Shown here piece after piece: positions 19,021 to 59,881 of a DNA stretch of 62,458 nucleotides (position 1 is the first letter of the stretch; each line of letters begins with the position of its first letter). Source of the stretch: Ignavibacteria bacterium (GTDB taxonomy: Bacteria; Bacteroidota; Ignavibacteria; Kapaibacteriales; UBA961); the NCBI GenBank assembly GCA_947491315.1, contig CANLII010000012.1, positions 1 through 62,458 of the forward strand. The letters are read 5' to 3'. Under the pieces are notes generated by a model. The model had not been told where the DNA came from and searched no databases. It saw nothing but the letters and a program-made list of their open reading frames with translations. Position numbers and translations under genes: made by a program.

Positions 19021-19518
19021 TCAGAAGTTAATCTTGATAGTACCTGTTGATGCATTGTATGTAACCGGGAATTCTCTGAGTGTTTGAGAAGGACCGCTCT
19101 CCAGTACATTTCCGAAGCTTTTTTCATCAACAGAATATTTCGCTTTCATCGGGCAAGTTTCACAAATGATTTCCTTGTTAACAGGATTACCTAATGCAGG
19201 TGCAGGAGACTTTTTCTCGCAATTTTTGGGACATCCAACAGAGATGCAACGATATGTGTCAATATCAGTTTTCAAGATGATGATTGGATTGCCATTATTG
19301 TTCGAACCATATGTTCTTCGGACAAATCCATCCATATTTCCCAAACCCGGTTCATCGGCAACTTTTAACTCAATTGAATTATCACTCGGAGATGTTGAAT
19401 CCGAGCATCCTGACAAGGATAAGTTCATGAATAAACCTGCGGAAACAAAAGGAGCAATACCTAATGCTTTTAAGACAATTCTTCTTTGAGAGTCTGTAAG
19501 GGGTTTCTGCTGTGCCAT
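19021..19518 (-). CDS. Rieske-like Tat lipoprotein lacking the histidine ligands
   Basis: 165 residues. The N-terminus has a Tat-like QRRIVLK motif, a hydrophobic stretch and a lipobox LSGC (Cys38). It is paralogous to the Rieske lipoprotein encoded at 21861-22337: both share GFVRRTYG/GFIRRSFG and a VTYN ... I-x-I-x-F end. At the cluster-binding site the partner has C-P-H and C-P-N-H, while this protein has C96-P-K-N-C100 and C119-E-T-C122, plus C91. Both His ligands are replaced, and five cysteines remain. It may bind a different centre (all-Cys Fe-S or zinc) or have lost metal binding; the sequence does not decide. The gene follows the adenylate cyclase gene after 111 bases. Confidence 0.75.
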   Translation of the reverse strand: MAQQKPLTDSQRRIVLKALGIAPFVSAGLFMNLSLSGCSDSTSPSDNSIELKVADEPGLGNMDGFVRRTYGSNNNGNPIIILKTDIDTYRCISVGCPKNCEKKSPAPALGNPVNKEIICETCPMKAKYSVDEKSFGNVLESGPSQTLREFPVTYNASTGTIKINF

Positions 19519-19629
19519 CTAATTATCCGATCATTGTAAAACAATTTGCATTCAACATAGCTAGAAAATATGTTAGGAGCAAATTACTTTTATGCGAAGA
19601 CATTGATTGTCAAGGGATTATAACCTTTC

Positions 19630-21861
19630 CTACATTCTTCTTAGGAAAAATGTTCTCATCTCGCCTTTCCCTTTTATCTGCATTGTACCTCGATCATGAA
19701 TAGAAATTACTCCGAATGATAAGGTAATCGTATCCGGAAAAGATTCCGATCCTGACATACCACAAAGATTTCGGACAAATGATTCACTTACATGCACTTC
19801 TTCTCTTTGTCCTTGAGATTCCATCCTTGAAGCAGTATTGACAGTATCTCCCCAAAGATCATACGTGTATTTGTGGCCACCAATCACTCCTGCAATGACT
19901 GCTCCACAGTGTAAACCAATTCTTAATTTAATTATATCATGTCCGGGAAAGCGATGTTTCTTTGAAATACCCAATACTCGAAATGCAAATTCAGTAATCC
20001 TTTCAGCGTGATTTTCACGCAAAGTTGGAATACCGCAAGCACCCATATAAGCATCGCCCAGTGTTTTGATCTTTTCTATCCCTAATTCAAGAGCGAGTGC
20101 ATCAAAATCTGTGAAAAGATCATTCAAAGTTCCAACCACTTCAGCCGCCTGTAATTTCAAGGCAGTCTCTGTGAAAGAAACAATATCCGCAAAAATGATA
20201 CTCACATTTTCATATTGCTCCGCTATCATTGTTTCACCTGAAACAATTCGATTTGCAATTTCAATCGGCAAAATATCATGTAGGATTCGTTCTTTCTCTT
20301 TGAATCGAATCAATGACTCTTGATTGGTTCTTTCCATTTGTTCAATCTTGCGAATAAGCTCTAATTCCACAGCTTGCTTTTTTGCTTGTTCATTCATCAC
20401 TTCTTTTTCCAAATCATGATATAATTTGAAATGATGAAATGCTTCCCCAATACGATTAAGAGTTTCATATAATGTTGATATCGAAAGATATGTTCGATAT
20501 TCTTCTCTCTTCTGACCTAACTCAATATGAACTTTCAATGCTTCTTTCAAAAGATTCTCACTTTGCATTGCATCATATTGTTCAAAATCAGGAATACCAT
20601 ATAAATCACCTAATGCTGCTATCCATCCGGCTTCTTCTGCTCTGATGCCAAGTTCATTCGAAATGAGAATTGCCTTTTGTAAATATTCATTGCCTTTGGA
20701 ATAATCCTTAACCGCAATAAAAACCAATCCTAAATTTCCATAAGCAGATGCTGTTTCAGACTTATTCCCAATTTTCTTTGCAATCTGCATTTGAACATTT
20801 AGATACTCCATTGCATCTTGATTTTCCCCTTTTAATCGATATATATCTCCAAGGTTTTTTGCGATATACATTTCTTGATCAGGATTTGGAAATTCCTTCA
20901 ATAACTCCAGAGCTTGCTGATTATACTTCAATGCTTGTTCATGATCACCAAGATCTTTATTAATGGTGGCGATATTTCCAAACTGGCGAATCATCCCAGA
21001 AACATTTTCATGCTCTTCATCAATATTGAGTGCTTTCTGATAACATTCCAATGCCTTTTGAAAATCAGATACAGAGCCATAAACAACTCCCATATTTCCA
21101 TAATACATTGAATGATTTGTGCTTATGCCCAATTGTTCATCAAGATTCATTGCTTTTTTATAATACTCTAGAGCCTTAGTATACTCACCAAGATTACTAT
21201 AAATCACTCCCATATTTCCAAGTATTGAAGCGATACCACTTGCATTCCCCATTGCTTCTTCTTTCTTGAGTGCCGATTTGTAATAAGTTAGAGCATTATC
21301 GAATTCTGAAATACTTACATATGTCATTCCAATATTTGTCTCGCAACTTGCTATTTTTCGATTATCCCCAAGTTGTTTTGCTAACTCCAAACCTTGTAGA
21401 TAATAATTCAGTGCCTCAGTGAATTCTGACAAATAATAATGAAGAACACCAAGATTCATCAGATACTTTGCCATTCCGTCCAAGTCACGCTCTTCAATGC
21501 ATAATTCAAGAGCTTGTTTCATGAAGTCGCGTGATTGCTCGAACATTCCTGCTTGAAGGTATAAGACACCAGCATTTCCATTAATTTGAGAACAGAGTGC
21601 TTTACTCCATGAAGAACCATGTTCTTTCATGAGCTTCATGGAAATTGATGAAGATATCTCTCCCTTATTACGATTTCCTCTCCTCCAATATGACTGAGAT
21701 AGTAGTACATGAATATGTGCCAAATATTCAGGACCAAGTTGCAAGTTTGAGTCTAGAATGCTCAGACAAGCTTCTTCCAATTGTTCATAGTGTCCCAAAT
21801 CCAGTAATGACTGTAATGGGGCAATATTGTATTTGACATTATGTTCTTTTTCTATTATCAT
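19630..21861 (-). CDS. TPR-repeat class III adenylate cyclase
   Basis: 743 residues from ATG 21861, which overlaps the TGA of the Rieske gene by one base; a TTG at 21864 is possible. About ten tetratricopeptide repeats fill residues ~20-440, a coiled coil follows at ~470-540, and the cyclase domain occupies ~555-740. Visible catalytic features are metal-binding Asp in FADIVSF and in LGDAYM, adenine-specifying Lys in EKIKTLGD with Asp in YDLWGDTVN, and the transition-state Asn/Arg pair in NTASRME. No membrane segment is seen, so it is cytosolic. It should make cAMP from ATP, with TPRs as a protein-interaction input. Translational coupling to a periplasmic Rieske lipoprotein is unusual. Confidence 0.88.
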   Translation of the reverse strand: MIIEKEHNVKYNIAPLQSLLDLGHYEQLEEACLSILDSNLQLGPEYLAHIHVLLSQSYWRRGNRNKGEISSSISMKLMKEHGSSWSKALCSQINGNAGVLYLQAGMFEQSRDFMKQALELCIEERDLDGMAKYLMNLGVLHYYLSEFTEALNYYLQGLELAKQLGDNRKIASCETNIGMTYVSISEFDNALTYYKSALKKEEAMGNASGIASILGNMGVIYSNLGEYTKALEYYKKAMNLDEQLGISTNHSMYYGNMGVVYGSVSDFQKALECYQKALNIDEEHENVSGMIRQFGNIATINKDLGDHEQALKYNQQALELLKEFPNPDQEMYIAKNLGDIYRLKGENQDAMEYLNVQMQIAKKIGNKSETASAYGNLGLVFIAVKDYSKGNEYLQKAILISNELGIRAEEAGWIAALGDLYGIPDFEQYDAMQSENLLKEALKVHIELGQKREEYRTYLSISTLYETLNRIGEAFHHFKLYHDLEKEVMNEQAKKQAVELELIRKIEQMERTNQESLIRFKEKERILHDILPIEIANRIVSGETMIAEQYENVSIIFADIVSFTETALKLQAAEVVGTLNDLFTDFDALALELGIEKIKTLGDAYMGACGIPTLRENHAERITEFAFRVLGISKKHRFPGHDIIKLRIGLHCGAVIAGVIGGHKYTYDLWGDTVNTASRMESQGQREEVHVSESFVRNLCGMSGSESFPDTITLSFGVISIHDRGTMQIKGKGEMRTFFLRRM

Positions 21862-22337
21862 CAAAATTCAATCGTGATGCTCTTTGCTGTTGAATTATAT
21901 GTCACTGTGAATGTTTGAGCGGATGCACTTGATTGACCACCAATATTCTGCGCAAAATTCCCTTCGCTTAGTCCGAATTCCGCTCCATGATTTGGACATA
22001 CTGCTTTATTACCTGAGGGTACACCGATGGTGCCACCTTCATGTGGACAATAACTCGACATCGCACGGAATTTATCTTGCGAAGTACGGACCACAATCAC
22101 GGGTCTATTCCCATTCATGTTTGCGCCAAATGAGCGTCGAATGAATCCACCATTATTTGCCAATGTCGGTTCATTATCCAAAAGTACTGTCACCTTCTCA
22201 CCGGTGAGTGGACTTGTAGGATTATCATCATCTGAACATCCTGATGTACATAAGCTCATTATCATAGCACTTGAAACAATGGGTAATATTCCCATGGTAC
22301 GAATGAATTGTCTGCGATCTACTTGATTCTCTTTCAT
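21861..22337 (-). CDS. Tat-exported Rieske [2Fe-2S] lipoprotein
   Basis: 158 residues. It has a twin-arginine motif (DRRQFIR) followed by a hydrophobic stretch and a lipobox-like TSGC (Cys34). The Rieske ligand set is intact: C97-P-H99 and C114-P-N-H117, with the usual spacing. Folded export with a pre-inserted cluster fits Tat. The family covers cytochrome bc subunits, oxygenase ferredoxins and stand-alone Rieske proteins; no bc-complex or oxygenase genes are near, so this is a stand-alone protein of unknown partner. It is coupled to the adenylate cyclase gene and starts 24 bases after the stop of the M43 protease gene. Confidence 0.88.
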   Translation of the reverse strand: MKENQVDRRQFIRTMGILPIVSSAMIMSLCTSGCSDDDNPTSPLTGEKVTVLLDNEPTLANNGGFIRRSFGANMNGNRPVIVVRTSQDKFRAMSSYCPHEGGTIGVPSGNKAVCPNHGAEFGLSEGNFAQNIGGQSSASAQTFTVTYNSTAKSITIEF

Positions 22338-22361: not shown

Positions 22362-24494
22362 TTAATGCTTGATAATTGATTGCGAACGAATGCGATGTCC
22401 TGCATGATCGATCAGAGAAATCACATACATACCTGTAGCCAAATCCTGTAATGAAATTTCCTGCAATGATTGCTCAAGTGGAATACGCTTCATTTCAATG
22501 CCGGTGATTGAATGGATTACGAAGGCTCCACCTATAGGCATATCACTGTTGAAATCAATCATGATATTGTCATTCGTTGGATTCGGCTTGATGGTAAATG
22601 ATTCAACCATGACTTGTTCTTCTGCGGATAATGCAATTGAGCAATCCGCACCGGCAGCAATGCCTTCATTTGGTTTTTCATTGTATTGATATTCAAGCAA
22701 TGTACATCCATTTGATGCGGATACTGCCATGCGCATCCATCCATAATGGAAGGCATCACCAGCTTGAATGCGAAATCCAACATAGCCGGTTTTACCGTCA
22801 AGCGCGGTATGCTCCGGACCATGCAATATAATAGGTGCGCCTCCTTGATTCCATTCATTATCGGAACCAATCACTGTGCCCGGCTCGAGGAAGACCACTT
22901 TTGAGCTCATTGCTGATTCAGTTATGAAACCACGGCCATAGTTCTCAATAGCATACACATCATTATTCTTCCACATGCCATAATAGCGTGGGAATGGACC
23001 TTGCAATTCAAAAAGGTTCCATGTTGTGTCCGCACTTGCTCGAACATATATATCCACACATGTCTTCTTCCACGGATCTCTGAACTCCAGACGCAACTGT
23101 GTTGACATATTCACGATTGCTTTATCCGCACCTTCGGAAAATGCTTCTTCAAATAATGTGAATATGAGCGATGCCTTTGTATCATTTGATGCATGCTTCA
23201 CGGCCTTTCCGGATATAGTCATCGTGGCAAATGTTCCATCACCGGAAACAATAATATTTTCTTTGAGTCCATCTGGCAATTCAATCGGGGAATAATGTTC
23301 TCCCGAAATCAAAGGATTTCCCTTCATGCCAAACTTCGCGCCATTGCTCGCATAAATGATAATTGAGCTACCATCTAAACTACCATCATTGATCAATGCC
23401 TCTCTGAGATATTGCGTTGAATATGAAATGAAAGGCGAATCCAAACAAGTGTCTTTGCTATTAGGAGACAATAAACCTGTTGCCACAAGATTTGATGGTT
23501 GCCATAATGTGCTTCTACCGGGATGCTTCATAGCGGCGTCCATGCGTGCAACTTGATCAATCGTGAAATTCTTATAACAAGTGGTATTATAATCCATGTA
23601 ATTTTCACCATTGATGATTCCATTGCATCGAGTTGCATCGCAACCGGCGGCCGCAATATCTGTCGGAGGAGTATCATCACATAAATCACCTGCACCCGTG
23701 CATGAACTTCCTTCAAATGTATGGCGAAGATCAAGAGAATGTCCAATCTCATGCGTGAATGTTTGATTGAACTCCAAGTAATTATACGATGAACCACCTT
23801 TGCCGAGATAGACATAATTGTACACCATGCGAGCGATATCATTATCACTCATCCAAGTTGATGGATACCAGCAAACCCCGGAATTATTGAAGACATTATT
23901 CGCATATATATCATTCTGAACATAGACATTGAAGTACTTATAATTATCCCAAGCATAAGTGCGAATTTGATTTTCCCAGCTGGGTCCGATATTGCCGAAT
24001 CCACCCTGACGATCTTGATAATACATCACGCCATTGGTGGGCTTTCCATAAGGATCTCTTTTAGCAAGTGCAAATCTGATTTTTGAGTATGACTTCGTGT
24101 TTTTGAATACGGGATTCACGGTTCCATAATCAGCATCCGTTCCGGCAAATGTGCGATTCAAATCTTCGATTGCATATTCCAATTGAGCAAGAGGAACACC
24201 GGCTTCACCTTTTGGATGAAACACATGAAACACAATGGGAATGATTTGCACACATGCAGTATCAGGCATATCATATATACCTAATCCTGCCTCTCCATTC
24301 CGTTTCCTTTGAATCTTCGGTATGGGTCTATATGATGGATCATGCCTCAATTGATGATTCAATGCTTCAATTTCCCTTGAAATACCACGATCATGAGATT
24401 CCAAACCACCGGGAATGGGTTCTTTCGGTAATTGTTGAGCATTCGCGATCATACTCATGATCAGAAAGAGAAATGCAGTGTAGAATATGTTCAT
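22362..24494 (-). CDS. M43 (pappalysin/cytophagalysin-type) metalloprotease, T9SS-secreted
   Basis: 710 residues with a signal peptide (about 1-19). The zinc site is HEIGHSLDLRHTF at about residue 250, the extended HExxHxxxxxH metzincin motif. The Gly usual in HExxHxxGxxH is Asp here. Downstream GDLCDDTPP and NYMDY are typical of M43 enzymes, the latter including the Met-turn. The C-terminal ~75 residues (IKPNPTNDNIMIDF ... TGMYVISLI) form a T9SS sorting domain, so the enzyme acts at or beyond the cell surface. It is the first gene of a minus-strand run with the Rieske and cyclase genes (gap 24 bases) and is divergent from alkB. Confidence 0.9.
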   Translation of the reverse strand: MNIFYTAFLFLIMSMIANAQQLPKEPIPGGLESHDRGISREIEALNHQLRHDPSYRPIPKIQRKRNGEAGLGIYDMPDTACVQIIPIVFHVFHPKGEAGVPLAQLEYAIEDLNRTFAGTDADYGTVNPVFKNTKSYSKIRFALAKRDPYGKPTNGVMYYQDRQGGFGNIGPSWENQIRTYAWDNYKYFNVYVQNDIYANNVFNNSGVCWYPSTWMSDNDIARMVYNYVYLGKGGSSYNYLEFNQTFTHEIGHSLDLRHTFEGSSCTGAGDLCDDTPPTDIAAAGCDATRCNGIINGENYMDYNTTCYKNFTIDQVARMDAAMKHPGRSTLWQPSNLVATGLLSPNSKDTCLDSPFISYSTQYLREALINDGSLDGSSIIIYASNGAKFGMKGNPLISGEHYSPIELPDGLKENIIVSGDGTFATMTISGKAVKHASNDTKASLIFTLFEEAFSEGADKAIVNMSTQLRLEFRDPWKKTCVDIYVRASADTTWNLFELQGPFPRYYGMWKNNDVYAIENYGRGFITESAMSSKVVFLEPGTVIGSDNEWNQGGAPIILHGPEHTALDGKTGYVGFRIQAGDAFHYGWMRMAVSASNGCTLLEYQYNEKPNEGIAAGADCSIALSAEEQVMVESFTIKPNPTNDNIMIDFNSDMPIGGAFVIHSITGIEMKRIPLEQSLQEISLQDLATGMYVISLIDHAGHRIRSQSIIKH

Positions 24495-59110: not shown

Positions 59111-59149
59111 GAGCAAACATAGTAAAAGATATTATTGAATCCATGCATC

Positions 59150-59183
59150 TTGATTAGCAAAGCAAAAAACATCCGTATCTTTG
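59150..59183 (+). promoter_or_regulatory. Promoter of the Popeye-like gene
   Basis: TTG (59150-59152), 23 bases, then TATCTTTG (59176-59183). Transcription would start near 59190, which favours ATG 59213 over the upstream TTG at 59135. Confidence 0.45.
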
Positions 59184-59212
59184 TCCATCGAAGTTTATAC
59201 GATACAGATCTC

Positions 59213-59881
59213 ATGCAAACACAATTCTCATTGACCGAGTTCTTCCTCACTAGCATCTTTAATCTCTTCTATTTGGCGGGTTTTATCGTCAAAGATATCC
59301 TCTGGCTTCGGGTACTCATCATCATCGGATTCAATATCGAATTGATGTATCATTTCAGGGACTTACATGCTCCCGAATGGGCGGAAATCGTATGGTGTGG
59401 GTTTTATATCCTCGTCAATGGTTATCAATTCACAATGCTCTATCGCGAAAGAAGAAATCTGAAATTTACTGATGAAGAATTGGCATTGCATGCAAAAGTA
59501 TTCAAAGACATGCCGAAAAGTGCTTTTCGAAAACTATTGAATATCGCGGGTCAAGAGGATTTACCAACAGATTTCGTGATGGTGCATCAGAATACTACGA
59601 TCGACAAATTAGCATTGATTTCTGATGGACTTGCCAAAATAGAAGTGGATGATGCAATTGTAAGTTATGTGAGGAATGGACAATTCGTGGGAGAAATGAG
59701 TTTTCTTTCGGGTAGTCTCACAACAGCAACTGTCACCACGATAGATGAAACGCGATGTCTGCTTTGGGATAAAGAGCAATTGAAGGAATTGATGAAAAAG
59801 GACAGTGAGGTGGAAACCTCTTTGAGCATGGTATTCAATAGCGATTTACTATCAAAACTATTGGGTGGAAAAGGAATTTAA
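59213..59881 (+). CDS. Popeye-like membrane protein with cyclic-nucleotide-binding domain
   Basis: 222 residues from ATG 59213 (chosen because the promoter lies between it and the in-frame TTG at 59135). Three hydrophobic segments (about 8-24, 30-45, 58-76) with FNLFYLAGFIVKDILWLR and a HFRDLHAPEWAEIVWCGFYILVNGYQ stretch resemble Popeye-domain proteins. The C-terminal half is a cNMP-binding beta-roll with GQFVGEMSFLSGSLTTATVTT, close to the phosphate-binding cassette. It probably senses cAMP at the membrane; an adenylate cyclase is encoded at 19630-21861 in this window. It overlaps the MBL gene 3' end by 4 bases. Confidence 0.8.
   Translation: MQTQFSLTEFFLTSIFNLFYLAGFIVKDILWLRVLIIIGFNIELMYHFRDLHAPEWAEIVWCGFYILVNGYQFTMLYRERRNLKFTDEELALHAKVFKDMPKSAFRKLLNIAGQEDLPTDFVMVHQNTTIDKLALISDGLAKIEVDDAIVSYVRNGQFVGEMSFLSGSLTTATVTTIDETRCLLWDKEQLKELMKKDSEVETSLSMVFNSDLLSKLLGGKGI

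Follow-up and report, generated by a model that had tools for sequence, protein, structure and literature searches.

Proteins that retain the Rieske fold without its cluster ligands are known, as in the NirD type. Rieske-type ferredoxins, exemplified by Sulfolobus ARF and the ferredoxins of dioxygenases, are low-potential proteins that lack the disulfide-forming cysteines of their respiratory counterparts (PMC2946596). Ligand exchange on the ARF scaffold has yielded several outcomes: the H64C substitution alone converts the centre to a low-potential 3Cys-1His [2Fe-2S] cluster, the H44C/H64C double mutant assembles a cluster poorly, and in the engineered variant H44I/K45C/H64C a rubredoxin-like Fe(Cys)4 site forms (PMC2946596). 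In the window, by which we mean the whole 62,458-nucleotide stretch of Ignavibacteria DNA that was analysed, two Rieske-related lipoprotein genes flank a gene for a class III adenylate cyclase with TPR repeats. Our literature search, partial in its coverage, turned up no publication describing a Rieske-cyclase system.

An earlier note, made from the sequence alone, had described three open reading frames at this locus, namely a Rieske protein (R1), a TPR-adenylate cyclase and a paralogue of R1 (R2), and the profile matches and the identity between the paralogues bear this out (Table 1). The note had omitted an M43-family metalloprotease gene, which lies on the same strand 24 bp upstream of R1 and may be the first gene of the R1-cyclase-R2 transcript; the C-terminus of its product resembles Por_Secre_tail, a T9SS sorting domain, with a score below the cut-off of the model. 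Upstream of the metalloprotease gene, a sigma-70-like TTGACA-18-GATAAT sequence was identified at 24657-24628 as a consensus match only. R1, the cyclase gene and R2 form a genus-specific cluster and are probably read as one transcript. The translational coupling of R1 and the cyclase that the note had proposed was also upheld, as the ATG of the cyclase at 21861 overlaps the stop codon of R1 as TGATG in five genomes (G000, G114, G115, G117 and G118), with a 12-bp gap and no such overlap in the sixth (G116). Retention of TGATG in five genomes suggests that the levels of R1 and cyclase matter to each other, beyond pure hitch-hiking. The gap between the cyclase gene and R2 spans 90-112 bp in the relatives, and its sequence is poorly conserved in the alignment.

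Table 1 Features of the R1-cyclase-R2 cluster in the window.
Feature	Coordinates	Strand	Evidence
M43-family (pappalysin-like) metalloprotease gene	22362..24494	-	Pfam M43 2.9e-42; Por_Secre_tail 3.8e-05, under curated cut-off
R1, Tat-exported lipoprotein, intact Rieske site	21861..22337	-	Pfam Rieske 2.7e-08
Soluble TPR + class III adenylate cyclase	19630..21861	-	Pfam Guanylate_cyc 1.6e-53, TPR_12 2.8e-48
Gap between cyclase and R2, 111 bp	19519..19629	-	Alignment
R2, Tat lipoprotein, Rieske fold without His ligands	19021..19518	-	35% identity to R1; structure model

Seven genomes of the genus were sampled, and the order R1-cyclase-R2 was present in all six that could be tested, spanning contig breaks in G114 and G118 and with R1 truncated where the contig ends in G115. 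The seventh genome (G119) yielded no R2 match and no orthologue-level cyclase match, an absence that is uninformative because the assembly, at 85% completeness, is missing the neighbouring M42 gene as well. The conserved neighbourhood that the earlier note had put forward as a check was therefore found within the genus and not beyond it: none of the sister-genus loci read linked a Rieske gene to a cyclase, and the R1 relatives there adjoin aconitase, MsrB or unrelated genes, with neither a cyclase gene nor R2 beside them. The MsrB proteins encoded next to an R1 relative in a sister genus (L049 8904-9416 and L050 1620-2216) are exported and are possibly redox partners. In G116, a bacteriorhodopsin-family gene that is missing from the window lies between the TonB receptor and M42 genes (L043 5401-6129).

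Within the genus, every flanking gene shows the same degree of synteny, and conservation therefore fails to set R1, the cyclase and R2 apart. Furthermore, TPR-cyclases are numerous enough in the family (66 matches in G108, 18 in G111 and 23 in G112) for the adjacency of one of them to Rieske genes to be weak evidence of shared function; in sister genera they are lined up head to tail, most with intact motifs, and 20 array members have a median identity of 43%. Large tandem arrays occupy L096 1-20000, L097 1-20000 and L098 5002-17918 (G108 and G111), and 66 matches in one 3.7-Mb genome are unusually many. The numbers and frequent tandem arrangement of these cyclases, the equal synteny of every neighbour and the other partners of R1 relatives all fit an account in which a member of this abundant family landed between the Rieske paralogues in the ancestor of the genus and was kept by descent, with no shared function. 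We consider such fortuitous neighbourhood rather unlikely; against it, the overlap was retained in G115 and G117 although their cyclases share only 71% protein identity with that of the window.

R1 carries the Rieske ligands as CPH...CPNH, conserved in every member in which the region is present, and its Rieske domain, with the C-x-H and C-x2-H ligands of a [2Fe-2S] protein, scored above the Pfam cut-off. Its sequence, CPHEGG...CPNH, does not follow the C-T-H-x-G-C / C-P-C-H pattern, with disulfide cysteines, of respiratory high-potential Rieske proteins. A twin-arginine motif and a lipobox cysteine are present in both R1 and R2, and TatC was found in 7/7 genomes of the genus; the earlier description of R1 as a Tat lipoprotein with an intact Rieske site is borne out. 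The LES signal of B. fragilis is SDDDD, to which CSDDDN in the R1 of the window is similar (PMC5080379). Since conservation of CSDDDN does not extend to G116 or G117, a surface export signal is not claimed for R1.

R2 had no match in Pfam or NCBIfam, and a PDB search with its sequence returned weak, unrelated matches only. Its similarity to R1 was nevertheless clear (E about 1e-21), and a tree placed it within the clade of R1 and the family Rieske proteins (support 97/91), with a stem 1.46 substitutions per site in length. A structure model from 42 sequences, replacing a shallower model with pLDDT 59, reached a pLDDT of 76.6, rising to about 90 across the greater part of residues 51-165. This predicted model has the Rieske fold: its top structural match was the Rieske protein 1g8j_D (Z 11.3, rmsd 2.4, 105 residues), and its top Foldseek matches were Rieske proteins.

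The two-Cys/two-His ligand set is absent from R2, which carries CPKNC...CETCPMK in 6/6 genomes. Both histidine ligands are replaced (C96-P-K and C119-E-T-C), as the note had recognised in calling the protein His-less, but it had missed five cysteines, C91, C96-x3-C100 and C119-x2-C122, that are invariant in all six genomes. C119-x2-C122 occupies the position of the Rieske C-x2-H motif, with C122 in place of the loop 2 histidine. The site differs from the two C-x2-C knuckles of rubredoxin in that loop 1 is C-x3-C and loop 2 is C-x2-C, and a c-type haem was dismissed since R2 has no CxxCH. Its dN/dS of 0.056-0.18 indicates purifying selection, and in a comparison of G000 with the most divergent member, 25/29 residues of its ligand loops are identical, as against 56/98 elsewhere (p = 0.004, for loops picked after viewing the alignment); the low dN/dS and the conserved loops ruled out a decaying pseudogene. 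Going by the model, R2 is a conserved Rieske-fold variant with replaced histidine ligands and new cysteines. No other five-Cys R2-like Rieske protein was found among the homologues read from searches of 123 genomes of the order and 395 of the phylum, and a scan of genome contigs with exact patterns returned same-genus MAGs (Kapaibacterium/Ignavibacteria) only.

R2 is probably either a metal protein with cysteine ligands only or a protein with a redox-active disulfide. The predicted Cys-only site would most likely be a mononuclear Fe or Zn site, a [2Fe-2S](Cys)4 cluster or a redox-active disulfide; C91, the fifth cysteine, is not accounted for by a metal site of this kind, and the C-x3-C of loop 1 and the poor cluster assembly of the ARF H44C/H64C double mutant likewise count against one. 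The main rival to such a metal site is a metal-free R2, whose cysteines would either form structural disulfides, given an oxidising periplasm, or serve as a thiol-disulfide redox pair. This reading is a real possibility, although we would not call it probable: R2 is exported and has five cysteines and no histidine ligands, and its CPKNC resembles the C-x3-C of Sco proteins, whereas the retention of Tat export, which is usual for folded cofactor proteins, and the exact replacement of C-x2-H by C-x2-C argue, though not decisively, for a metal site.

In the cyclase, D559, D603, K599, D668, N675 and R679 are invariant in five orthologues and make up the class III catalytic set, with roles assigned as those of both metal aspartates, the adenine-binding lysine and aspartate, the asparagine and the arginine. 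Hydropathy analysis in 19-residue windows revealed no apparent membrane segment, because the best window lies within the catalytic core. The enzyme would act in the cytosol, where its TPR domain may sense a protein or another cytosolic signal, and would make cAMP for the CRP/FNR-type regulators of the genome; two CRP/FNR-like proteins encoded elsewhere are possible readers. The window also encodes, at 59135-59881 on the plus strand, a bacterial Popeye-like (POPDC) protein that contains a cNMP-binding domain and may act as a cAMP effector. At L037 3432-4898, another TPR-cyclase gene of the genome is followed directly by one for an exported protein containing CGGGCHG.

The earlier note had proposed a redox-sensing cAMP circuit with one paralogue as reporter or antagonist; in the form considered here, R1 would sense the redox state of the envelope and control the cyclase, and R2 would be the reporter or antagonist. 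The conserved linkage and the overlapping stop and start codons fit such a circuit. However, the cyclase is cytosolic, R1 and R2 are Tat-exported and the cluster encodes no membrane relay, so a direct circuit has no evident route, and the membrane link between sensor and cyclase that marks redox-sensing transmembrane cyclases was not found. Moreover, the linkage is limited to one genus with equally syntenic flanks, and TPR-cyclases are very numerous in the family. We therefore regard the circuit as improbable. That R2 acts as reporter or antagonist is speculation, and the abundance of cysteines at its site suggests a function of its own, based on thiols or on a different cofactor. The sole topologically simple contact, itself speculative, would be between the cyclase and unexported R1 or R2 precursors. 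Least probable of all, and highly so, is the combined proposal that R2 is the first natural conversion of a Rieske fold to a Cys-only metal site and that the TPR-cyclase binds the Tat precursors of R1 and R2 in the cytosol, signalling through cAMP the state of their cofactors or of their export.

Collectively, we lean, by a little over even chances, towards a genus-specific cluster whose products share expression and not a direct redox relay. R1 would be an envelope-anchored electron carrier of the Rieske-ferredoxin type, R2 a Cys-only protein derived from an R1-like Rieske by duplication and subsequent neofunctionalisation, and the cyclase a cytosolic enzyme.

Compared with known systems, R1 is like the Rieske-type ferredoxins in its C-x-H...C-x2-H ligands and in lacking the two disulfide cysteines, and unlike them in being a Tat lipoprotein and not a cytosolic oxygenase ferredoxin. 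The cyclase shares its full catalytic set and TPR sensor with other class III adenylate cyclases that have N-terminal TPR repeats, but it is encoded between Rieske lipoprotein genes, an arrangement seen in this genus only. An independent tandem pair, unrelated to R2, occurs at L086 1498-2767, where a His-lost Rieske-like protein (CTKDS...CPVDG) adjoins a classic Rieske protein. Like this protein and the NirD type, R2 is without histidine ligands; unlike the L086 protein, which keeps two loop cysteines and gains none, it gains three. With ARF H44I/K45C/H64C, R2 shares a Rieske scaffold, the loss of both histidines, a Cys-only ligand set and C-x2-C in loop 2, and it differs in being natural, in having C-x3-C instead of C-x2-C in loop 1 and a fifth cysteine, and in that its site is predicted from sequence. 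To our knowledge, a metal-site switch of the R2 type on a Rieske scaffold is otherwise laboratory-made only. If R2 does hold a Cys-only metal site, evolution would have repeated the cofactor switch engineered in ARF, moving few ligands on a conserved scaffold, and because R2 nests among ordinary Rieske relatives, R1 included, the steps of that switch could be traced and tested.
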